This document shows, one piece after another, positions 1-59,074 of a stretch of DNA of 64,000 bases (positions are counted from its first letter, which is position 1; each line of letters starts with the position of its first letter). Source of the DNA: Embleya scabrispora (GTDB lineage Bacteria; Actinomycetota; Actinomycetes; Streptomycetales; Streptomycetaceae); the NCBI RefSeq assembly GCF_002024165.1, contig NZ_MWQN01000001.1, positions 3,141,365-3,205,364 of the forward strand, read 5' to 3'. Both the position numbers and the translations under genes were made by a program. The notes under the pieces were generated by a model. That model did no database searches and was not told the DNA's origin. It saw nothing but the letters and a program-made list of their open reading frames with translations.

Positions 1-655
1 CGGTCTCCAGCACGATCGCGGCGATCGTCTGGGCGCCCTCGAACACGATGGTGTTCTCCAGGTGCGCCAGCGCTCGCTCGCACTCCTGCGCCTCGCCGTC
101 GGCGTGGAAGGCGGAGCGGTAGGCGTACGGGCCCCAGAAGTGCACGATGCCGGACACGCCGGTCTCGTTCGGCCAGCGGCGCGGGTCGCCGGTCAGCGCG
201 ATCGCGTTGGCGGTGGCGCCGTGGTACGAGCGGTAGGTGGAGAGCACCTTGTGCCGGCCGGTGTGCAGCCGCGCCATCCGGATCGCGTTCTCGTTCGCCT
301 CGGCGCCGCCGTTGGTGAAGAAGACCCGGTTCAGGTCGCCGGGCGCGAGCTCGGTGATCAGCCGCGCGGCCTCGCTGCGGGCGTCGTTGGCGAAGGCCGG
401 CTGGACCATGCACAGCTTGTCGGCCTGGGCCTTGATCGCCGCGACGACCTTGGGGTGCTGGTGTCCGATGTTGGTGTTGACCAGCTGGGACGCGAAGTCC
501 AGGTATCGGTTGCCGTCGTAGTCCCAGAAGTAGGATCCCTCGGCGCCCGCGACCGCCAGCGGGCTGATGAGCCCCTGTGCGGACCAGGAGTGGAAGACGT
601 GGGCGCGGTCGGCGTCGTAAACGGCCTTCCCGGCCGCCGGGTCCAGAGTGCTCAT
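1..655 (-). CDS. Class III aminotransferase, N-terminal part
   Basis: PLP-dependent class III (omega) aminotransferase. The gene runs off the left window edge, so only about 218 N-terminal residues are visible and the PLP lysine is not seen. The ATG at 655 gives MSTLDPAAGK, followed by the family pattern: an entry segment around YFWDYDGNRYLDF (residues 43-55), the GHQHPKVV segment, the FTNGGAEANENAIRMAR cofactor-phosphate motif near 112-128, and YRSYHGATANA near 140. These match the class III fold. The substrate (aspartate, GABA or an omega-amino acid) cannot be told from this part. It lies downstream of purA in the same direction, separated by a strong terminator, so it is probably transcribed separately. 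Confidence 0.85.
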   Translation of the reverse strand, partial: MSTLDPAAGKAVYDADRAHVFHSWSAQGLISPLAVAGAEGSYFWDYDGNRYLDFASQLVNTNIGHQHPKVVAAIKAQADKLCMVQPAFANDARSEAARLITELAPGDLNRVFFTNGGAEANENAIRMARLHTGRHKVLSTYRSYHGATANAIALTGDPRRWPNETGVSGIVHFWGPYAYRSAFHADGEAQECERALAHLENTIVFEGAQTIAAIVLET

Positions 656-45104: not shown

Positions 45105-45175
45105 GCGGGCGTAGTTTAATGGTAGAACATGAGCTTCCCAAGCTTAGAACGCGAGTTCGATTCTCGTCGCCCGCT
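45105..45175 (+). tRNA. tRNA-Gly(CCC)
   Basis: 71 bases plus an encoded CCA at 45176-45178. Acceptor stem GCGGGCG/CGCCCGC, D stem GTTT/GAAC, anticodon stem TGAGC/GCTTA around loop TTCCCAA (anticodon CCC, reading GGG), T arm GCGAG-TTCGATT-CTCGT. Its 3' half is the integration site of the neighbouring element. Confidence 0.95.
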
Positions 45176-45176
45176 C
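45139..45176 (+). repeat. att copy 1 (tRNA-Gly 3' end)
   Basis: 38-bp att core from the anticodon loop through the CC of CCA; identical to 53382-53419. Forms the left attachment junction. Confidence 0.9.
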
Positions 45177-45184
45177 CATATGTA

Positions 45185-45240: not shown

Positions 45241-46395
45241 CTACGCCTCGCGTGCCAGATCCGTGCCAGATTGGGGATGATCTTGGGGCCGAGATTTCTT
45301 GATCCGCTTCGCGATCGAGTCCGCGATGGCTTGGTCCCGGCCAGCGCGAGCGTGTTGATAGATGAGCGCGGCGCGTGACGTCGACTGGCCCATGCGATCC
45401 ATCAGCTCTCGGAGGGTGGCGCCGGTCTCGGCGGCGAGGACGTTCCCGGTATGACGTAGATCGTGGAAGTGGAGGTCAGTCACTCCGAGGTGATGGGTCC
45501 CGCGGCGCCATACCCGGGTGAAGTTGCAGCGACGCAGGGCTGCCCCCTTCGGACCGACGAAGAGCAAGCCGTCTTCTTCCTTCTCCGCGAACCACTCCAC
45601 TTGCCGACGCAGGTCGAGGAGTATCGGCGCGGGGATGGTGACGGTGCGCTTGCCGGCGGCCGACTTCGGCGGTCCGGTGATGCGCTTGCCGTTGCTCATC
45701 TCGATTGCGGAGACGTCGATACGGATGGCGCCTGCGTCGAGATCCACGTGATCGCGACGGAGGGCCACGAGTTCGCCCCAGCGCAGGGAACCGAAGGCCG
45801 CAAGGAGGACGAGAGCCCGGTAGCGAGGCCCGACGCCATCCGCGAGGGTGAAGACCTGTTCGAGGGTGAGGATCGGCCGCTCCGGAGCCTTCTCGTCGCC
45901 GCCGCCCTTGATGCGGCAGGGGTTGCGGCGGATCAGGCCGTCGTCCACGGCGGTGTTCATGATCGCGCGCATGAGCCGGTACGCCTTGGCGGTGGTCGAC
46001 AGGCCGACGCCGCCTTCCAGGCGAGTGGCGCGCCAGCGGCGTACGTCCGCCTCCTTGATAGTCGGGATGGCCGCCATGCCAAAGGTGGGCATCAGGTGCA
46101 GGCGAAGCAGGATGCTGTACAACTCACGCGTGCGCGGTCGGAGGTTCGGCCGCTCCTTGATCCAGGCGATGGCGAACGTACCGAAGACCAAGTCGCCGCG
46201 CGGGTCGATCCAGTCGCCGCGCCGCATCTCCGACTCGGTGTCGGTCAGCCACTCTTCGGCGGCCGTCTTGGTGGCAAAGGTCTTGTCAGCTGTCAGCAGT
46301 TGGCCATCCGGCCCGGGGTATCGCGCCTGCCACTTCTTGGACGGAAGTTGACGGACCGCCCCGAAACGACGGCGCCGCCCCTTGTTGTTGGCCAT
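45241..46395 (-). CDS. int: Tyrosine site-specific integrase
   Basis: 384-residue phage-type integrase. Arm-binding N-terminus (RRRRFGAVRQLPSKKWQARYPGPDG), core-binding SAM-like domain (about 75-165) and catalytic domain with Arg in FGSLRWGELVALR, Lys in GKRTVTIPAP, HDLRHTGNVLA (HxxR) and the nucleophile in AALIYQHA. It integrates the element into tRNA-Gly. ATG 46395 shares its A with the xis stop (TGATG), so the two are coupled. The arm-type repeats lie over its last codons. Confidence 0.95.
   Translation of the reverse strand: MANNKGRRRRFGAVRQLPSKKWQARYPGPDGQLLTADKTFATKTAAEEWLTDTESEMRRGDWIDPRGDLVFGTFAIAWIKERPNLRPRTRELYSILLRLHLMPTFGMAAIPTIKEADVRRWRATRLEGGVGLSTTAKAYRLMRAIMNTAVDDGLIRRNPCRIKGGGDEKAPERPILTLEQVFTLADGVGPRYRALVLLAAFGSLRWGELVALRRDHVDLDAGAIRIDVSAIEMSNGKRITGPPKSAAGKRTVTIPAPILLDLRRQVEWFAEKEEDGLLFVGPKGAALRRCNFTRVWRRGTHHLGVTDLHFHDLRHTGNVLAAETGATLRELMDRMGQSTSRAALIYQHARAGRDQAIADSIAKRIKKSRPQDHPQSGTDLAREA
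45252..45270. repeat. Putative integrase arm sites, left end
   Basis: Two GTGCCAGA copies, 45252-45259 and 45263-45270, 11 bp apart, at the 3' end of int about 75 bp from the att core. The same pair, same spacing, occurs near att copies 2 and 3. Confidence 0.6.
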
Positions 46396-46610
46396 CAGGC
46401 CGCCTTTCCATGAGTTCTGCCAGGCTCCACGAGCCCAGCGCGAATGAAGGCGTCGACCGCGTCCGCCGGAATCCGGACATGGCGGCCGATCCGAATGAAG
46501 GTGATGCGTCGCTCTGCGATGAGGCGACGGACGAAGCGCTCGCCGACATTGAGCCGGTCGGCGGCTTGGGGGACGGTCAGGAGCCGTCCGGGAGTGCTCT
46601 TCTCGCTCAC
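46395..46610 (-). CDS. xis: Excisionase-like DNA-binding protein
   Basis: 71 residues from GTG 46610: RLLTVPQAADRLNVGERFVRRLIAERRITFIRIGRHVRIPADAVDAFIRAG is a MerR-type winged helix of the excisionase family (HTH_17). It directs excision with the integrase and precedes it by a one-base overlap. Confidence 0.88.
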   Translation of the reverse strand: MSEKSTPGRLLTVPQAADRLNVGERFVRRLIAERRITFIRIGRHVRIPADAVDAFIRAGLVEPGRTHGKAA

Positions 46611-46662
46611 GGGAGCAAGTCCCCTCGCAGGTCTGGACTGGTCAGGTCGCGTCCTGTTGGGC

Positions 46663-46791
46663 CCGTCTGCGTGGGGACCTCGGCTCTGTTGTCTCGACAC
46701 CGTTTGGGCGTTTGGTCGGTGCGAGCCGGCCTGTGGCGGCCGTTGCCGAATATCGGTCGGGTGGTGCGTTGGTCCGGCCGGGTGCGCGGGG
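46663..46791. repeat. 129-bp non-coding block, identical to 54848-54976
   Basis: Upstream of xis-int. All 129 bases match the copy in element 2, although the int and xis copies beside it have diverged with frameshifts. Probably holds the xis-int promoter or another functional site; contains CCGA-ATA-TCGG (about 46747-46757). Confidence 0.85.
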
Positions 46792-46824
46792 GGCCGTTTT
46801 GCGCACCCGACCGGGGTGTGTGGG

Positions 46825-47130
46825 TCAGGCTGCTTCGTCGTGGGCGGCGAGGTGATCCAGCTCGGCACAAAGGCCGTTGGCGAGGAGCGCGGCCAGGCGG
46901 TGGACTGCGTCGGCGGGGACGGGGCCGAGGTTGACCAAGCCGTCACCGTGGACGTTCACTTCCGCCTTGAGCGCTCCGAAACCGTCGTCCAGACCGGCTG
47001 TTGTGAGGCGTTTGGCGAGTTCAGTCGTGGCGTTGTTCGCCGTGCGCTAGCCACGGACATAGGGGATGCCGGCGTCCAGGACCTCGGCAGGTGGTGCGCA
47101 GGTTCGAGCGTTGTCGGCTGCGGGGCGCAT
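46825..47130 (-). pseudogene. Small conserved gene interrupted by an in-frame TAG
   Basis: ATG 47130 has a perfect AGGAGGT six bases upstream. It reads MRPAADNARTCAPPAEVLDA and on to YVRG, meets TAG at codon 28 (47049-47047), then stays open in the same frame for 73 codons (RTANNATTELAKRLTTAGLD... to HLAAHDEAA). The downstream part is paralogous to the 80-residue gene next to it and is also found in element 2, which lacks one base here and so is in another frame. A restart at an internal GTG (EVNVHGDG) is possible. Confidence 0.6.
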
Positions 47131-47871: not shown

Positions 47872-48085
47872 GTTCATCTCCCGAAGCCCGCCGGTCGTTC
47901 CGCCGGGCATCACCACGATGCGACGGCGGCACCGGTCCGAGGCAGACGGCAAGGGATGACAAGGGGTGACACGGCTTGTCACCTCAGCGCGTGTCAACGA
48001 GATCAACTCACTGCGATTCTTTGACGATGCTTCGTGTGCGCGAGCACGATGGCTGGATCTGGCTCCGTTTCCGGGGAGGCGATTC

Positions 48086-49465
48086 GTGGTGTCGGCCACC
48101 ACGCCGTATCAAGCCAATCTCCTACGCGCGGCCCGAACTCACCTCGGCTGGAAAAAGCCCCGTCTCGTCTACGCCCTCCGCCAAGCCGCCGCGCAGGAGG
48201 GTCGCTCCCTAGCCACCGACACATCACTCCTGCGAAGCATCGCCCGCTGGGAGAACGGCCAGACCTACCCCGCCGACTACGTCGAACTGCTGGTGAAGGT
48301 CTACGGTCAGCCAGCACACCGACTCGGGTTGGCCGACGCCCCGGCCGCTCCAGAGGCCCCAGGCACGGTCTACCCCAGCACTCCCACGGACGGCATCGAA
48401 GCACTTGCAGCGCTGTGGCGTGCCGATCTCGCGCCTGATAGCGACATGCAAGCGCTGGCCCCGGACCCGACTGCCTGGAACGCGGCACCGCTGGCGTGGC
48501 TCGTTTCCGGGCAGCAAGAGCAGCTGCCGAATTCACGAACCCAAACACAGGTGGGGGTGTCGGACGTCGAAGCCGTCCGTGCAACGGTCGACGTTTACGC
48601 CGACTTGGACAACCGCTTCGGGGGAGGGCACGGCCGCCGAGCGTTGATCCAATACCTGGACGGCGACGTCGCCGAGTTGCTGACCGCGCGCAGCACGGAG
48701 CCCGTGGGCCGCGCTCTGTTCGGCACGGTCGCCGAAGCCACGCTCCTCGCCGGGTGGATGAGCTACGACAGCGGGCACCACGGCTTGGCCCAGCGCTACT
48801 TCATCCAGGCCCTCCGCTTGGCCCAGGCCGCCGCAGATCGCCGTCTCGCAGGAAGCGTCCTCTCCGCGATGAGCCATCAGGCCACCTACCTCGGCCGCTT
48901 CACCGAGGCAGCCAACTTGGCCCGCGCCGCCCAACTCGGTACAACAGGCCACGCAACGCCGACCCTGACCGCGCAGTTCCTCGCGATGGAGGCCCGAGCA
49001 CTCTCCCGCGTCGGCGACCACGCCGGATGCCACACGGCCTTGACCCGGGCAACGACGATCTTCGAACGCACCAACCCGGGTGAAGACCCGGAGTGGATCG
49101 GCTACTTCGACCAGGCGGAGCTGTCCGCCGAGCTGGGCCACTGCTTCCGCGACATGCACCAGGCCCAGCAAGCCACCACATACGCGGAACTGTGTCTTGG
49201 CGGCACGGACGGCCGCTACGTCCGCAGCGACTTCTTCGCGACCATGGTCTTGGCGGAAGCCCACCTGACGGCCGGAGAACCCGAACTCGCCTGCCGCAGC
49301 GCCCTCACCGCGCTGAGGCTCGGACGGCAGCTCAAGTCCGCCCGATGCGTGACCTATCTATCCGAATTCCGCACAAAGTTGGCGGTGTTCGCAACCTCAG
49401 CTTCAGTTACCGAATTCCTGGAAGAGGCCGAGAGCCACCGCCTGTGGCAGCAGACCGCGAGTTGA
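48086..49465 (+). CDS. HTH regulator with tetratricopeptide-like repeats
   Basis: 459 residues. The N-terminal DNA-binding region (about 6-80: YQANLLRAARTHLGWKKPRL... LRSIARWENGQTYPADYVELL) is XRE-like, as in NsdA-type Streptomyces regulators. The remainder is helical repeats (LAQRYFIQALRLAQAAADRRLAGSVLSAMSHQATYLGR..., ARALSRVGDHAGCHTALTRA). GTG 48086 has GGAGG six bases upstream; GTG 48089 is an alternative. Probably controls the divergent small genes. Confidence 0.82.
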   Translation: MVSATTPYQANLLRAARTHLGWKKPRLVYALRQAAAQEGRSLATDTSLLRSIARWENGQTYPADYVELLVKVYGQPAHRLGLADAPAAPEAPGTVYPSTPTDGIEALAALWRADLAPDSDMQALAPDPTAWNAAPLAWLVSGQQEQLPNSRTQTQVGVSDVEAVRATVDVYADLDNRFGGGHGRRALIQYLDGDVAELLTARSTEPVGRALFGTVAEATLLAGWMSYDSGHHGLAQRYFIQALRLAQAAADRRLAGSVLSAMSHQATYLGRFTEAANLARAAQLGTTGHATPTLTAQFLAMEARALSRVGDHAGCHTALTRATTIFERTNPGEDPEWIGYFDQAELSAELGHCFRDMHQAQQATTYAELCLGGTDGRYVRSDFFATMVLAEAHLTAGEPELACRSALTALRLGRQLKSARCVTYLSEFRTKLAVFATSASVTEFLEEAESHRLWQQTAS

Positions 49466-49472
49466 TCCGGCT

Positions 49473-50390
49473 TCAGAACGGCTTCCACCCGTGCCGGTCG
49501 GCACCGCTCCGCAGGTCCGACATACGCCGCTCGACCTCCGCCTTCACCGCAGCATCGCCGGCCATGTTCTGCGTCAGCCACACGGTCATCATCAGCTCAC
49601 GCATGTCCGCCAGGACCGGGTAGCCGTACCAGTTCATGACGTCGAACCCATACGCGTGCACGAACGCCTCGTACTCGGCCCGCGTGTGCCACCCGTACCG
49701 CTCGTAGTACATCGCGGTCAGCACCAGGTCCCACTCACGTGGCCCGAGCGCGAACCCGTCCAGGTCGATGAGGACAGCCCGTCCCGCTTCGTCGACGAGC
49801 GCGTTCCCGACGTTCGCATCCCCGTGCACGAGCCCGAAGGGAAGCACGAACTCCAGAGCGTCGTACCGCTTACGCAGGTCCTCGGCCCGCTGCCGCAGAA
49901 ACGCCCGGTCGTCATCGCCCAACGCCACCGCGGCATCGATCCGCCCCCAGGTCGCCGCCAACGGCTCCAGATACGGCACCCCCAGCGACTCCGGCTCCTC
50001 CAGCCAGTGCAACCGCCGCAGCAACTCGGCCAACGCGACCACACCAGCGAACCGCTCCTCGTCGGCCACCAGCTCCCAGAACGTCACCACCCGCCCATCC
50101 ACCACAAGCGGTTGCCGAATCCTCGAAACGACGCGCACCGCTGGGAACCCCACATCGGCAAGCCACCGAGCAGCAGCAACAGTCCGCTCATGCTCATCGA
50201 CCCGGTCCGCCGACCGAGCCACCCGCACCACAACCGGATCACCCAGTCGAAAGACAGCGTTCTCCCCAAGCCGCAGCAGAGCCGCCCCCTCAGCACTCAG
50301 CCCGGCCACGGCACACGCCGAGCCCAACACCTCCCGAGCACGCTCCACAGTGAACGCCCCACCGGCCCCAGACACCCCGCCATCCGCCAT
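49473..50390 (-). CDS. Aminoglycoside phosphotransferase-family kinase
   Basis: 305 residues with the APH/ChoK fold: LLRLGENAVFRLGDPVVVRVARS (nucleotide part), then catalytic loop GLVHGDANVGNALVD (Asp about 192) and the metal-binding VLIDLDGFALGPREWDL (about 208-224). The target may be a small molecule or protein; there is no evidence of antibiotic resistance. It converges on the regulator with only 7 bases between the stops. ATG 50390. Confidence 0.85.
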   Translation of the reverse strand: MADGGVSGAGGAFTVERAREVLGSACAVAGLSAEGAALLRLGENAVFRLGDPVVVRVARSADRVDEHERTVAAARWLADVGFPAVRVVSRIRQPLVVDGRVVTFWELVADEERFAGVVALAELLRRLHWLEEPESLGVPYLEPLAATWGRIDAAVALGDDDRAFLRQRAEDLRKRYDALEFVLPFGLVHGDANVGNALVDEAGRAVLIDLDGFALGPREWDLVLTAMYYERYGWHTRAEYEAFVHAYGFDVMNWYGYPVLADMRELMMTVWLTQNMAGDAAVKAEVERRMSDLRSGADRHGWKPF

Positions 50391-51083
50391 ACCGCGAAGC
50401 TACCCGCATCCCACGCCCTGTCGATCCACCAACGGCGCCCAATCGACCATTGCCGAATTTGGCTCTACAGGATCAAGCGGCACGCGTCCCGCGCGCCGAC
50501 GCCCGGTTGGGCTGGGGGCCGCGCCGGGCGTGCGGCGTGGCCGCCGGTCCCGGTGCGGCCCCCAGCCCAACCGGGCGCTCAGCGTCGGTCGGGTCCGCCG
50601 CGAGCGAGTCTTTACCTTCGCGCCGATCGGCGGGGACCCCTGCCGGAGCAAGGACAGAGGGCCGAGGGGGACCAAAACCGGGTGGGGATGCCTGCGGCCC
50701 CCCTCCGCCGGGCAGCGTACGGCCCCCTGACCATGCTCCGGCCCCGCCAATCAACGCGAAGGCAAACACTCACCCGCAGCTCAGCGCGACAGCTGCGTTC
50801 GCCCGGAACCCTTGCACCCCCGGGCTATTGGGTCTCCCCTCGGCCAGACGCCGAAGGCACCCATGTTTGTGAACGGCGCGCTTTGGCGCCGCTTGGCTGC
50901 GTGTGCTGACGTCTAGCTGCGCGTGAAGCGCACCCACGCCGTTCCCGATGAAGCCCCGCTGTGCCAGCAACAGGGCATTTTGCCGGCGAGTCAATGAGGA
51001 ATTGCTTAGAATCGTGGCCACCGGATCTCGCGGAACTTTGCACATCTTCCGCTCAACGTCACTTGTGAAAACGAGGCTCAGGG
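50391..51083. other. Intergenic region with a long hairpin
   Basis: No supportable gene. It marks the shift from high to lower GC. It contains the hairpin at 50501-50576, and TTGAAA/TTGCTT-like AT-rich segments near 51000, upstream of the accessory pair. Confidence 0.5.
50501..50576. repeat. 22-bp perfect inverted repeat
   Basis: Arms 50501-50522 and 50555-50576 are perfect complements; the 32-base loop holds another GCCGGG/CCCGGT pairing. Very stable as RNA or single-stranded DNA. Confidence 0.9.
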
Positions 51084-51569
51084 TTGCAAGTTGATTCATT
51101 CACACAGGTTGCATCCGTCTTCTCGCCTGTAGCCGTCGCCGTGATCGCCGGGGTCTTCGCAGCACGCGCCAGTCGACGCCTACGGTCAGATGTCATCATG
51201 GCTCGCCTAGTGGCTGAAATTTCGGCCATCGAAAGCATGCCTGCTGGGACTACCGGCAGGTCCGAACTTGAGGCCCAAAGGCTCGCCACGATCCGGAGAT
51301 ACAAAGAGACCTGTCAACGAGAGGACACATTCAAGCGAGACGCAGCCGGATTAACTCTCGGACTTATTTTGGGTGGAGGTGGAATCGCCCTTGGAACATG
51401 GGCAGCCAGTCAAGGTGGACCTTATCTTTGGTGGTGGGCGCTAGCCTTCCCTGCGATCGTGCTGGGAGTCCCAGGATTCTTCCATGAACTTGCTGGAGGA
51501 CGCAGCAGGAATCAGGTCGCCCCTACCCCTTCAACTCCGCCCACCAGTTCACAGCCCACGAACCCCTGA
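51084..51569 (+). CDS. Two-span membrane protein beside the ApeA-like gene
   Basis: Up to 161 residues from TTG 51084 (tentative; GAGG about 7 bases upstream). One span near the N-terminus (FSPVAVAVIAGVFAAR), a charged helical middle (RSELEAQRLATIRRYKETCQREDTFKRD), two further hydrophobic segments (GLTLGLILGGGGIALGTWAA and YLWWWALAFPAIVLGVPGF) and a Thr/Ser/Pro tail. Base composition is lower in GC than the chromosome, as in the next gene 104 bases downstream. No family recognised. It may be part of the same accessory module. Confidence 0.65.
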   Translation: MQVDSFTQVASVFSPVAVAVIAGVFAARASRRLRSDVIMARLVAEISAIESMPAGTTGRSELEAQRLATIRRYKETCQREDTFKRDAAGLTLGLILGGGGIALGTWAASQGGPYLWWWALAFPAIVLGVPGFFHELAGGRSRNQVAPTPSTPPTSSQPTNP

Positions 51570-51673
51570 GCGGAGTTCACTCACAAGCCTATCGGCAAGC
51601 ACCCTGGATTGCACTTACTCCTCCGAAAAAGCCAACCGTCTGATTTCAGCCCACTATCGATCTGGATGCGTTT

Positions 51674-53008
51674 ATGGATAAATTGCTCTCGAATATCAGG
51701 GATGGAGTTATCGGCGAATTCAGAATTGTAAACCACAAGGGAGAGCCGAAGAATCACATCAATTATGGATATCTGGAAGGGACATCCGACGGTCTGTTGC
51801 AGCTGAGGGTGGTGGACACAGGAAAAATCTTCCCCTTGCCGGATGACGAAGAACGATTTCCTGAATCGATCATTGGCACAACCGAGTCAGGGCAAGTACT
51901 TCTGATGCACCCCACATGGCGCAATAGCACATATGCCGGAGGGCCCAGCATCTCAAACAGTCGATTCAGATTCAAGACTGTAATCTGTGGCCCTACCGGC
52001 CAATTGGCGAGAACTCCTACCTTTACAGCGGCGCGGGTATTCTTTCCGGGCATTGCCCGCTGGGCCGGACTGCGCACCTATGACGAGAAGATCGAGCAGC
52101 GCGCTGACGGCCGCATGTACGCAGTAAGTATCGAGCTCTTCTCTCCCCAGGAGACTTCGATTGAGATTTCACGAGGGATGCGAATCCACCTGTCCGGCCA
52201 TTGGGAGTACTCGGGAGGAGATAGAAAAGAGATCTACGCTCCGGTGCAGATTGGATGCGAATCAGATTCACCATCCAATCTAACTGACCTGCTACGCCCT
52301 TTGTTGAGAATCCAAGATCTGCTAAATATAAAATTCAACTCATACGTGGCGGCAGATGGGGGGCAAGTCGTTCTTTCACATGGATCAGTCCCTGACAAGA
52401 AGCCAATACTATGGACGACTCCCCTGATGCACGGGCCACCAGGAACACGCCTTCGCGATGCCAACTCCAGTCCTGCGCTCCCGTTGCAGCAGATTGGTGG
52501 GCTACCGGGGATTCGACGATGGCTCAGGCTCTACGATACGCATCCGCGTTCGGTAAAAGCTGTAGTCGACCGGTTTCGGCGAGGCAATACATCCCCTGAA
52601 ACGAGGCTACTTGAAACAGCAACCGGGCTAGAGTACTGGGTCTCATCTCACAAAAGACAAAAGGTTCAATGGGCCAAAACATCACCACAATCTCTGGCCG
52701 TTGCGCGCAATGTAGGAGTTCCATTTCGCGATTGGATTGGCGACGTCAAAGTTTGGTCCGATATTTTCTGGGATGCCTACAACGGACTCAAGCATAATGT
52801 CCGATACAACCCCGACCCAATCGACATTCACGTATTGGCCGAGAGCGGACAATTCTTGCTCACCGCCGCTTTGCTGAAACGAATCTCGCCGGACAATATA
52901 GCAATTCAGTCGCTTTTTGAGTCCAGACAGGCGTATGGCATTAGAGACGAGGTAAGAACGTTGATTCGGAACCCTCCGCCTAATATTCGCCAACCGAGGG
53001 GGAGATAA
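51674..53008 (+). CDS. ApeA-like protein with N-terminal ApeA domain and C-terminal HEPN-like domain
   Basis: 444 residues. The first about 270 residues are a beta-rich domain (GEFRIVNHKGEPKNHINYGYLEG, VLLMHPTW, EKIEQRADGRMYAVSI, WEYSGGDRKEIYAPVQIG) with the character of the ApeA N-terminal domain; the last about 150 are helical (RLLETATGLEYW, FWDAYNGLKHNVRYN, GQFLLTAALLKRI), as in Apea_HEPN. ApeA proteins are single-gene abortive-infection anti-phage systems. The HEPN R-x4-6-H is not clear: His is in GLKH but the expected Arg is absent. The codon use is AT-richer than its surroundings, a sign of transfer. ATG 51674; the ribosome site is weak. Confidence 0.65.
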   Translation: MDKLLSNIRDGVIGEFRIVNHKGEPKNHINYGYLEGTSDGLLQLRVVDTGKIFPLPDDEERFPESIIGTTESGQVLLMHPTWRNSTYAGGPSISNSRFRFKTVICGPTGQLARTPTFTAARVFFPGIARWAGLRTYDEKIEQRADGRMYAVSIELFSPQETSIEISRGMRIHLSGHWEYSGGDRKEIYAPVQIGCESDSPSNLTDLLRPLLRIQDLLNIKFNSYVAADGGQVVLSHGSVPDKKPILWTTPLMHGPPGTRLRDANSSPALPLQQIGGLPGIRRWLRLYDTHPRSVKAVVDRFRRGNTSPETRLLETATGLEYWVSSHKRQKVQWAKTSPQSLAVARNVGVPFRDWIGDVKVWSDIFWDAYNGLKHNVRYNPDPIDIHVLAESGQFLLTAALLKRISPDNIAIQSLFESRQAYGIRDEVRTLIRNPPPNIRQPRGR

Positions 53009-53245
53009 TCCCTCTAAGGGAACCGCCAGACCAACCATCCTCCTGGGAGGCGAGACTGGCCCGGCTTGCGTACCAGAACGGCGCAATTCAAGGTCCTGAT
53101 GAGCGCTCAGAGCATCAGCGAACGCGCGGGGCAGGTGGAGGCTGCCCAGGTCGCAGGCAGGACCACAAGCTTCCCCTCCAAGGCTTCTGAAGTCGCGAGC
53201 GCGCGCGGCAACGGCACTACAGGCCAGGAAGGCGTACTGCTCGCC

Positions 53246-53264
53246 GTGCCAGATGCGTGCCAGA
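53246..53264. repeat. Putative integrase arm sites, right end of element 1
   Basis: GTGCCAGA at 53246-53253 and 53257-53264, 11 bp apart, 118 bp from att copy 2. Mirrors the left-end pair. No supportable gene lies in 53009-53480. Confidence 0.6.
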
Positions 53265-53381
53265 ACGGGTGGGAAATCGCGGTCAGCAGAGGGTACTGAC
53301 GGGCTGTCGAGCCGGGTAGTACTGGCGAGGATGCGGGGCTGGTCAGGGCGCATTCACGGGCATCGCTGGAACGGCGCTTCA

Positions 53382-53419
53382 CAAGCTTAGAACGCGAGTT
53401 CGATTCTCGTCGCCCGCTC
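53382..53419 (+). repeat. att copy 2
   Basis: 38 bp identical to 45139-45176. Right junction of element 1 and left junction of the element 2 remnant; followed by a related hairpin at 53428-53466. Confidence 0.9.
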
Positions 53420-53483
53420 GTTTGATGAAGGCCCAGGTCACGGACATGATCCGTAGCTTGGGCCTTCGTCGTCTCCGGAACCC

Positions 53484-54578
53484 CTACGCCCCGCGCCAGA
53501 TCCGTGCCGGCTTGGCGATGATGTGATCCCGGGGCCGAGACTCCTTGATCCGCTTCGCGATCGGATCGGCGATGACTTGGTCCCAGCCGGCGCGAGCGTG
53601 CTGGTAGATGAGCGCAGCTCGCGACGTCGCCTGGCCCATGTGGTCCATCAGCTCACGGAGCGTGGCGCCGGTCTCGGCTGCGAGCACGTTGCCCGTGTGG
53701 CGCAGGCCGTGAAAGTGGAGATCGGTGACGCCGAGATGGCGTGTCCCGCGTCGCCACACCCGAGTGAAGTAGCAGAGGAGAGCGGCGCCCTTCGGGCCAA
53801 CGAAGAGCAAGCCGTCCTCCTCCTTCTCTGCGAACCGCTCCACGTGCCGATGCAGATCGAGGAGGATCGGCGCGGGGATGGTGACGGTGCGTTTGCCGGC
53901 GGCCAACTTCGGCGGGTCCGTGATGCGCTCGCCGTTGCTCATCTCGATGGCGGAGACGTCGCTGCGGATGGTGCCCGCGTCGAGGTCCACGTGATCGCGG
54001 CGGAGGGCGGCGGCACACAACCGTCCACGAGCGTGAAGACCTGTTAGAGGGTGAGGATCGGCCGCTCCCGAGCCTTCTCGTCACCGCCACCCTTGATACG
54101 ACAAGGGTTCCGGCGGATCAGACCGTCCGTCCGCGGCGGTGTTCATGATCGCGCGCATGAGGCGGTACACCTTGGCCGTGGTCGACAGCCCGAGGCCCCT
54201 TTCGAGCCGAGTGGCACGCCGGCGGCGTACGTCGGCCTCCTTGATCGCCGGAATGGCTGCTTTGCCGAAGGTGGGCATCAGGTGAAGGCGGAGCAGGATG
54301 CCGTACAGCTCACGTGTGCGCAGCCGGAGGTTTCGGCCGCTTCTTGGTCCAGGCCATGGTGAACGTACCGAAGACCATGTCGCCGCGCGGGTCGATCCAG
54401 TCGCGGCGTCTCATCTCTGACTCGGTGTCGGTCAGCCACTTTTCGGCTGCCGTCTTGGTGGTGAAGGTCTTGTCAGCGTCCGCAGTTGGCCATCCGGCCC
54501 GGGGTATCGCGCCTGCCACTTGTTGGGCGGTTGGCGGACCGCCCCGAAACGACGGCGCCGTCCCTTGCTGTTGGCCAT
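53484..54578 (-). pseudogene. int: Broken integrase of element 2
   Basis: Homologous along its length to int of element 1 but with several frameshifts and a deletion of about 60-80 bp around the first catalytic Arg (FGSLRWGELVAL is missing). The C-terminal part (MSNGERITDPPKLAAGKRT... HGLRHTGNVLAAETGA... AALIYQHARAG) is open and keeps Tyr. The start ATG 54578 and the relation to xis are as in element 1. Not functional. Confidence 0.9.
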
Positions 54579-54795
54579 CAGGCTCCCTTTCCATGAGTTC
54601 GGGCAGGTTCGACAAGACCGGTGCGAATGAAGGCGTCGACCGCGTCCGCGGAGATCCGGATGTGGCGGCCGATCCGAACGAAGGTGATGCGTCGCTCTGC
54701 AATGAGAGGCGACGGACGAAGCGCTCGCCGACGTTGAGCCGGTCGGCGGCTTGGGGGACGGTCAGGAGCCGTCCGAGAGTGCTCTTCTCGCTCAT
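54578..54795 (-). pseudogene. xis: Frameshifted excisionase of element 2
   Basis: 218 bases against 216 in the intact copy: a 2-bp duplication (AG) after RFVRRL shifts the frame. ATG 54795 and MSEKSTLGRLLTVPQAADRL match element 1. Confidence 0.88.
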
Positions 54796-54847
54796 GGGAG
54801 CAAGTCCCTTCGCAGGTCCGGGCTGTCAGGTCACGTCCTGTTGGGGT

Positions 54848-54976
54848 CCGTCTGCGTGGGGACCTCGGCTCTGTTGTCTCGACACCGTTTGGGCGTTTGG
54901 TCGGTGCGAGCCGGCCTGTGGCGGCCGTTGCCGAATATCGGTCGGGTGGTGCGTTGGTCCGGCCGGGTGCGCGGGG
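54848..54976. repeat. 129-bp non-coding block, identical to 46663-46791
   Basis: Second copy of the fully conserved block, between the broken xis and the small gene remnant. Confidence 0.85.
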
Positions 54977-55009
54977 AGCGCTCTGCGCACCCGACCGGGG
55001 TGTGTGGGG

Positions 55010-55290
55010 TCAGGCCGCTTCGTCGTGCGCGGCGAGGTGATCCAGCTCGGCGCAGAAGCCGTTGGCGAGGAGCGCCGCCAGGCGGTGGACTGCGCCGGCA
55101 GGGACGGGGCCGAGGTTGACCAAGCCGTCACCGTGGACGTTCACTTCCGCCTTGAGCGCTCGGAAATCGTCGCTCAGGCCGGCTGTTGTGAGGCGTTTGG
55201 CGAGTTCGGTCGTGGCGTTGTTCGCCGTGCGCAGCCACGGACGTAGAGGATGCCGGCGTGCAGAACCTCGGCTTGTGGCGCGCAGGTGGC
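55010..55290 (-). pseudogene. Small conserved gene remnant of element 2
   Basis: RTANNATTELAKRLTTAGLS to HLAAHDEAA is open, but the upstream part (CAPQAEVLHAGILYVRG) is one frame off by a missing base relative to element 1, and the start region is not conserved. Confidence 0.6.
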
Positions 55291-55432
55291 GAGCCGGCGA
55301 CGTGACCTTTGGCCGCGACCGGGGCGCGCTCGTTGCGTGGGACACCCGTTGGTGCTGCGCTCCGCAGCCGTTTCCGAAGCGAAGCCCGAAAACGTGTGGA
55401 CCGCCGCGAATTGGCCTGTGAGGGTTTGGCGC

Positions 55433-55684
55433 ATGGATCCCACTGCTGTGGAGCAGGCGCGACGGTCGGATGAGCGTCTGACTCAGGCGAGCAGACAGGC
55501 GCAGCCTGTCTGGGAGTCGAGCCACGATCACGATGCGTTTCGGCGGTTCCTGGACGACCAAGGTTGGGGTGCCGCACTGACGATCGCTGTGATTCGCAGG
55601 GTGCTTGGATGCGAACTCAAGGACGCCATGGACGTCTACGACTCGTACTGCGCCCGCACGCGGGAGGACGTAGCCGGTTCGTGA
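55433..55684 (+). CDS. Small hypothetical protein
   Basis: 83 residues from ATG 55433 with GAGGG upstream. Charged N-terminus then DQGWGAALTIAVIRRVLGCELKDAMDVYDSYCARTRED, which looks like a ribosomal L7/L12-like or Gp-type helical segment; no family assigned. It lies in the remnant, opposite the small gene. Confidence 0.5.
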   Translation: MDPTAVEQARRSDERLTQASRQAQPVWESSHDHDAFRRFLDDQGWGAALTIAVIRRVLGCELKDAMDVYDSYCARTREDVAGS

Positions 55685-55783
55685 AGGTCGGAACCACGCG
55701 AGGATGGCCGCCAACGACGACCCGCACGCTGCAAGCAAGGTCGCGCTGGATGGGCACTCACCTTGCACCGAACACGATCTTTC

Positions 55784-55957
55784 GTGCCAGATGCGTGCCA
55801 GAAGAGGCGGGGTATCGCGGTCCTTGGCGGACACTGACGGGCTGTTGCGCTCATCGTGGCACCACAGGGGCGGGGCTGGTCAGGGTGCGTTCGACGGTCC
55901 GGGTGGAACGGCGCTTCGCGGGCTTGGAACGCGAGTTTGATTCTCGTTGCCTGCTCG
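55784..55957. repeat. Decayed att copy 3 with arm sites
   Basis: GTGCCAGA pair at 55784-55791 and 55795-55802 (11-bp spacing), then about 120 bp homologous to the region before att copy 2, then an att-like core from 55922 differing from copy 2 by four transitions (GCTTGGAACGCGAGTTTGAT...). Marks the old right end. Confidence 0.75.
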
Positions 55958-56083
55958 TTGGATGAAGGCCCAGGGCATGGACTCGCTCCGAGCCTGGGCC
56001 TTCGTCGTTTTCGGGTCCGCTGCGGCGTGTTGCGGGCTTTGGGGGGTGTTGCGGCTACCGGGTGGGGGCGTTGGGAGGTGGGG

Positions 56084-58481: not shown

Positions 58482-58669
58482 GGGCGGGCGGGGCAGGCTA
58501 GGCGGGGGCGGGTACCGGGGCCGCCGGGTACGGGGCGGACCTCCGAACGGCGCGGCCGGGCATCGGGCATCGGGCATCCGATTCGGGTGCTGGAACCTTG
58601 GGAGGGGTCTCTGGCACCGGGGCTCAGGCGACAGGTGCCCGACGTCGCGGGCTCGAAGTGGGGGCTTGA

Positions 58670-58960
58670 AGCCGGTTGTCGGGCGTCGGGCTCGGGCGTC
58701 GGGCGCGGACGTCTGGCCCGGGCGACGGGCTCGGAGGTTGGGCTCGGGCGTCGGGCCCGGGCGACGGGCGCGGGCGTCTGGCCCGGGCGACGGGCGCGGG
58801 CGTCTGGCCCGGGCGACGGGCGCGGGCGTCTGGCCCGGGCGACGGGCTCGGGCGACGGGCTCGGACGTCGGGTTCGGACGTCTGGCCCGGGGGTTGGGCT
58901 CGGGGGTTGGGCTCGGGGGTCGGGCTCGGAGGTCCGGGCGCGGGGGGCGACGGGCTCGGG
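58670..58960. repeat. 13-bp minisatellite
   Basis: About 290 bp of degenerate 13-mers of the type GGGCGWCKGGCNC, with a clear 26-bp higher-order period (GTCTGGCCCGGGCGACGGG starts at 58776, 58802 and 58828). The unit is not a multiple of three, so not coding. The rest of 58482-59074 has no gene. Confidence 0.9.
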
Positions 58961-59074
58961 GGCGGGCTTGGGGTTCGGGGGTGAATGGGGCCTGGTCGGT
59001 GGGGCTTTGGAGGTTGTGGGGACCGTTCGTCCTACGCTGGGGGCGTTCGGGGACGGGCTTTGGAGGGTGTTGTT

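Follow-up and report, generated by a model that had tools for sequence, protein, structure and literature searches.

Descriptions of active HEPN sites name an arginine and a histidine, and the locus considered here raises the question of what a HEPN-like protein might do when the arginine is gone and the histidine stays. This protein, of 444 residues, is encoded by the second gene of a low-GC pair near the right end of an integrated element in Embleya scabrispora; the window, by which we mean the whole 64,000-nt stretch of DNA that was analysed, holds the complete element (Table 1). ApeA, the protein that it resembles, was reportedly found by Gao et al. in 2020 to carry a HEPN domain and to act in defence. 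We propose, with a probability of about 0.62, that the 444-residue protein is a stand-alone ApeA-like effector and putative RNase, belonging to a sister clade of ApeA in which Lys373 most likely replaces the arginine.

Table 1. Features of the element and of the 444-residue protein; nucleotide positions are those of the window, residue ranges those of the protein
Feature	Position	Strand	Basis or remark
tRNA-Gly(CCC), attachment site	45105..45178	+	31-nt core of 3' part at 45141-45171
Integrase (Phage_integrase)	45241..46395	-	Pfam domain
HTH_17 protein, excisionase-like	46395..46946	-	role inferred from domain and place
499-aa backbone protein	47966..49465	+	Pfam: nothing at E 0.01
APH-type phosphotransferase, last backbone gene ahead of slot	49473..50390	-	Pfam domain
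Variable cargo slot	50563..53233	n/a	unmatched in G001/G003 sister elements; backbones match on both sides
161-aa gene, two to three hydrophobic stretches	51084..51569	+	TTG start; slot cargo
444-aa ApeA-like gene	51674..53008	+	ORF list, Pfam, profile-profile comparison, AlphaFold model
ApeA_NTD1 part, beta-rich	residues 13-256		Pfam
HEPN-like part, helical	residues about 308-432		AlphaFold model
Glu320, acidic residue in helix ahead of motif	52631..52633	+	alignments, AlphaFold model
HEPN motif YNGLKH, residues 369-374	52778..52795	+	32-relative alignment, profile-profile register
Right attachment repeat	53384..53414	+	31-nt core identical to tRNA copy

The tRNA-Gly element and its exchangeable slot

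The gene pair is set apart by its composition. GC dips to 53-54% across the block that contains both genes (57.8% for the 161-aa gene, 51.9% for the 444-aa gene); the integrase, phosphotransferase and 499-aa genes of the element have 66.6-68.0%. The earlier note, which had described a low-GC pair near the right attachment site, is borne out by both the composition and the repeat at 53384. The two genes lie on the same strand with a gap of 104 nt, and both reading frames are regarded as genes because homologues exist for each. The 161-residue protein, previously called a membrane protein of two to three spans, indeed has that number of hydrophobic stretches when they are counted by eye; it found matches in 2 of 100 relatives, its own genome included, and the other relative is 42% identical. 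Scans for promoters and terminators across window positions 50750-53300 found none.

The tRNA flank is shared by all three congeners compared, and each has a second attachment copy close to it. The element backbone matches the window until 50562 in one of them (G001, 91%) and until 50566 in another (G003, 83%), and the match resumes at 53234 and 53240, respectively, while window positions 50567-53233 have no match in these two sister elements at E 1e-8. The slot thus delimited is 2.67 kb long in the window, somewhat longer in G003 (about 2.8 kb) and shorter in G001 (about 1.8 kb). G002, the remaining congener, keeps nothing but the two element ends, about 0.7 kb apart. Since slot content differs between sister elements, the 161-aa and 444-aa genes are exchangeable cargo. 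In the G001 slot lies a gene for a TIR_2-domain protein (E 2.3e-10), which the PADLOC model PDC-S66 also matches (E 9.5e-9). The G003 slot encodes a 401-residue protein without a match and a 210-residue protein with a sub-threshold FUSC match, and neither Pfam nor PADLOC recognised a defence gene in it. One of the two sister cargos therefore has a defence-type domain and the other does not. The idea that mobile elements carry defence genes at such a spot gains backing from this turnover and from the TIR gene in one sister slot, and this tRNA-Gly element, with its exchangeable slot, is a place to seek more defence genes.

Several smaller features accompany the element. An inverted repeat at 50500-50577 (29 nt, 97%, with a 20-nt spacer) spans the left edge of the slot at 50562; the sister elements are partly alike there, and the repeat might mark a route of cargo exchange. 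A third, diverged copy of the tRNA 3' part lies at 55921, and between the second and third copies the integrase region is present again, in pieces that are 83-99% alike, with its integrase reading frame broken into several frames. Positions 53376-56032 are a further, smaller element placed in tandem at this tRNA-Gly. Further along, a 13-nt unit is repeated in tandem at 58615-58976, with 19 register copies.

Homology and domain layout of the 444-residue protein

The N-terminal part of the 444-residue protein matches the Pfam family ApeA_NTD1 (PF18862) with E=1.6e-16 and 61 bits, above the cut-off of 25.5, and a profile-profile comparison with R-type ApeA proteins, whose motif reads R-x4-H, gave a probability of 97.5% and E 6e-12 over 394 columns. 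The protein had been assigned to ApeA by eye, which is correct as a statement of homology. When the two domain families are taken separately, as had been proposed as a check, ApeA_NTD1 holds, and HEPN_Apea (PF18739) remains borderline, scoring 20.1 bits where its cut-off is 24.4, and is absent at E 0.001 in the search of the own genome; the profile-profile match and the helical model described below are consistent with this domain. The same imbalance is found among proteins with the motif Y-x3-K-H of the 444-residue protein, which we call Y/K-type: ApeA_NTD1 exceeds its cut-off in all six that were tested, HEPN_Apea in only two of the six.

Current defence models separate the two types. The PADLOC model PDC-S58 matches eight of eight R-type proteins tested; neither this model nor Cas13-ApeA matches the 444-residue protein at E 10, and none of 11 Y/K proteins, this one among them, was matched by PADLOC models at E 10 or E 0.01. 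The PADLOC counts enter the L009 protein once, as L016:8624-10072. The protein found nothing in NCBIfam, and sequence searches of the PDB with the protein and both profiles likewise found nothing.

An AlphaFold model built from 11 sequences reached a mean pLDDT of 78.5, compared with a poor 46.7 for an earlier model from 4 sequences. Strands run from residue 12 to 201 and helices follow, as had been supposed for a protein with a beta-rich N-terminal and a helical C-terminal part. In the helical region the pLDDT is 84-95 in 15 of the 16 ten-residue blocks between 271 and 430, with high-confidence helices at 308-328, 358-374, 382-404 and 418-432. The motif forms the end of helix 358-374 and is followed by a loop and the long helix 382-404; Glu320 lies in helix 308-328. 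A survey of HEPN proteins (PMC3710099) locates the motif where helix 3 ends and an acidic residue in helix 2, and the predicted place of the motif in our model agrees with this description. At E 0.001, Foldseek found no match to the model, either in the PDB or in the set of viral models. In the VIA fold search, the beta half showed a middling resemblance to split-barrel, Hcp and PilZ proteins (highest Z 7.6), which we take as a common arrangement; no HEPN entry was listed in this search, which ranked chiefly residues 1-250 and hardly covered the helical half.

A motif exchange across a whole clade

The earlier note had remarked that the expected HEPN arginine is missing from FWDAYNGLKHN. This arginine is absent, and the same loss extends across a clade. 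Tyr369 occupies the place of the catalytic arginine, and Lys373 stands just ahead of the kept His374. An L-INS-i alignment of 32 relatives keeps the catalytic histidine in every row and divides them into 17 with R-[NDHI]-x3-H and 15, including the 444-residue protein, with Y-x3-K-H; mixed rows do not occur. With four more rows the count becomes 16 Y/K-type and 20 R-type of 36, and the histidine is present in 36 of 36. The acidic position 320 is Glu throughout the 32 rows except in L024, which has Asp. Profile-profile comparison, which does without a mixed alignment, gave the same register, with Y369 on the arginine, N370 on the asparagine and H374 on the histidine. The register rests on this comparison and on the 32-row alignment; a further alignment (A6), which puts the motif of distant R-type rows two columns off, served only the structure model. 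Neither the 32-row alignment nor the trees include L011 and L014 (short N-terminal or partial), L040 (stop in frame), the fragments L025-L038, or L069. The near-copies L008 and L018 are each counted, and L090, outside the 36-row count, reads R-type in its true frame. Because the protein lacks the canonical R-x4-6-H motif, we file it as a member of a sister clade and not as canonical ApeA.

The tree supports this division. All Y/K rows fall on one side of a single branch, whose support is 99/95 on all columns and 96/93 when the motif region is removed; the N-terminal part by itself gives 91 (SH-aLRT). As the same split appears without the motif and from the N-terminal part, the beta domain and the motif tell the same history. 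Several end branches are long, and the tree, read without a root, sets no order for the R and Y/K states.

Constraint is visible among the relatives. Six of seven mycobacterial Y/K gene pairs have dN/dS values (NG86) of 0.08-0.16, the seventh being saturated; the ratios are rough for four pairs because dS exceeds 1.6 there, and the 444-aa gene itself is a member of no pair. Its own frame is intact and keeps the columns that are invariant in alignment A2. The missing arginine is thus real and no sign of decay, which is disfavoured for this gene by the motif alignment, the kept invariant columns and the low dN/dS of the relatives. Since the change is common to the whole sister lineage, we regard the Y/K form as probably functional, not as a dead copy, and the suggestion of an ApeA variant stands.

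The R-type is the wider type, with rows from archaeal, proteobacterial, cyanobacterial and Bacillota plasmids. Y/K proteins were sought in Actinomycetota, plasmids, phages and IMG/VR, together with one pattern-based genome scan (three loci). The gene for the 444-residue protein occurs once in its own 11-Mb genome. Of 396 genomes of the phylum, 12 contain ApeA_NTD1, and the 14 control genomes have none. A profile made from the 444-residue protein and two relatives matched 16 of 394 genomes of the class, the own genome included and three of them R-type (L046, L047, L049). In another order, 249 genomes searched with a wider profile gave 8 with a match: R-type in five and Y/K in three, of which one has an internal stop. 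Besides the window's own, five family groups of the class contain the Y/K lineage. With tblastn at E 0.01 the 444-residue protein found no relative on plasmids or phages; the Y/K protein L041, used as another query, retrieved one relative on a plasmid, an R-type protein. Scans of viral sequences yielded one Y/K locus (L069, an IMG/VR contig) and six R-type loci, and further scans gave no match.

A putative altered HEPN site and its alternatives

The invariant histidine, together with a lysine that is present exactly where the arginine is lost, suggests an active site that is kept but altered, in which Lys373 may substitute for the arginine. We infer that the 444-residue protein probably works like ApeA, as a single chain in which a sensor part is joined to a HEPN RNase part. 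The beta-rich N-terminal part would hold the helical part inactive until a phage cue arrives, upon which the HEPN part, as a dimer, would cut RNA and thereby stop the infected cell (abortive infection). In the Y/K clade, the catalytic arginine would have become tyrosine, and the lysine would have arisen directly ahead of the kept histidine. More tentatively, and with somewhat less than even odds in our judgement, the clade could represent another functional layout of the HEPN RNase site in the ApeA family, and a defence type that has been overlooked and escapes present models. One step would then have moved the positive charge from five residues before the histidine to the adjacent residue, leaving tyrosine at the old place of the arginine, and the RNA target or the trigger would perhaps differ.

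The likeness to canonical ApeA comprises the N-terminal domain above its cut-off, the domain order, a similar length, the catalytic histidine and the acidic residue, and Y/K genes are also seen in mobile or defence settings. In contrast to canonical ApeA, Y/K proteins carry Y-x3-K-H, form a separate clade, go unseen by PADLOC in 11 of 11 cases and mostly stay below the HEPN_Apea cut-off. Reviews present ApeA as a HEPN-domain defence protein (PMC7699616, PMC10952713), and according to its title a 2026 preprint finds that deoxydinucleotides activate ApeA. The 2013 survey (PMC3710099) enters ApeA with a conserved motif, a description from which the Y/K clade therefore departs. The same source lists the HEPN families Parep1/8 and c2405 as having kept the histidine and lost the arginine; like the Y/K clade they have His without Arg, but they are other families with other partners. 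As PMC13405049 describes it, the defence HEPN protein of retron-Kva2 (a type IX retron) lacks the canonical motif and nonetheless needs a histidine and a basic residue, its site consisting of H64 and a sequence-distant arginine, R122; unlike Y/K ApeA, it belongs to a retron that includes reverse transcriptase and msDNA. We found no literature on an ApeA type without the arginine, in a search with thin coverage of preprints and subscription journals. If our main reading is true, a clade with arginine exchanged for a lysine elsewhere in the motif shows that a HEPN site can be rewired, and present defence models overlook an ApeA-like lineage. The sister R-type and Y/K clades form a pair for testing what the arginine does.

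Loss of the RNase chemistry is the strongest alternative, albeit an unlikely one: the HEPN part would then bind RNA or nucleotides, defending by binding, or would regulate canonical ApeA. It is favoured by the absence, from 16 of 16 aligned Y/K proteins, of an arginine that is required for activity in KEN and PrrC according to PMC3710099, and by the gene order at two loci. In L016 (M. fortunisiensis), HsdS and HsdR of a type I restriction-modification system and a DUF4917 protein (PDC-S21) precede the Y/K gene, and an R-type ApeA gene lies 1.4 kb beyond it on the opposite strand; in L051, a CAP12-type TIR gene and a 152-aa gene precede the Y/K gene, with an R-type ApeA gene before them on the opposite strand. 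Such an R-type neighbour, however, is found in only these two of 16 Y/K loci; moreover, the histidine is kept in all 36 rows, a lysine is present just in those rows that lost the arginine, and binding by itself would require no histidine. The two paired arrangements, each within a few kb (L016 5551-10072, L051 2618-7205), make cooperation or mixed dimers of Y/K and R-type ApeA worth a test.

Far less probable is a passenger without a present defence role, whether a decaying gene of the element or one that serves the element itself. The 444-residue protein is rare, as a search of 150 relatives matched only its own genome and one R-type protein; within one mycobacterial genus, the three-sequence profile matched 24 of 248 genomes, mostly as fragments or with internal stops, so that these matches are largely broken remnants. 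Against this stand the intact frame of 444 codons, the invariant columns and the low dN/dS of relatives described above, as well as the defence genes adjoining Y/K genes in L016 and L051.

Slimmer still is the chance of a two-gene system in which the 161-residue membrane protein serves the ApeA-like protein as anchor or pore-like effector, since the shared strand, short gap, low GC and slot of the pair are opposed by the absence of any gene for a similar membrane protein from the 16 Y/K loci (phmmer at E 10, rough gene calls) and of ApeA beside the one other relative found. The earlier proposal of a new partner thus lacks support and was dropped, and we regard the 161-aa gene as cargo of the same slot and not as a conserved partner. 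Among the rough gene calls of the 16 Y/K loci listed, no neighbour is common to all.

Other surroundings vary. An integrase gene lies ahead of the Y/K gene in L059. Directly upstream of two further Y/K genes are open reading frames whose products look HEPN-like by eye (L018 5291-5950, 219 aa, with WRHGHVAH; L050 4938-5438, 166 aa, with ASKHVVH) and have no match in Pfam or PADLOC. Twelve mycobacterial loci (L027-L038) hold a near-identical relict of a Y/K ApeA C terminus in a conserved neighbourhood; in those that were read, it takes the form of an 80-aa frame with YTSLKH.
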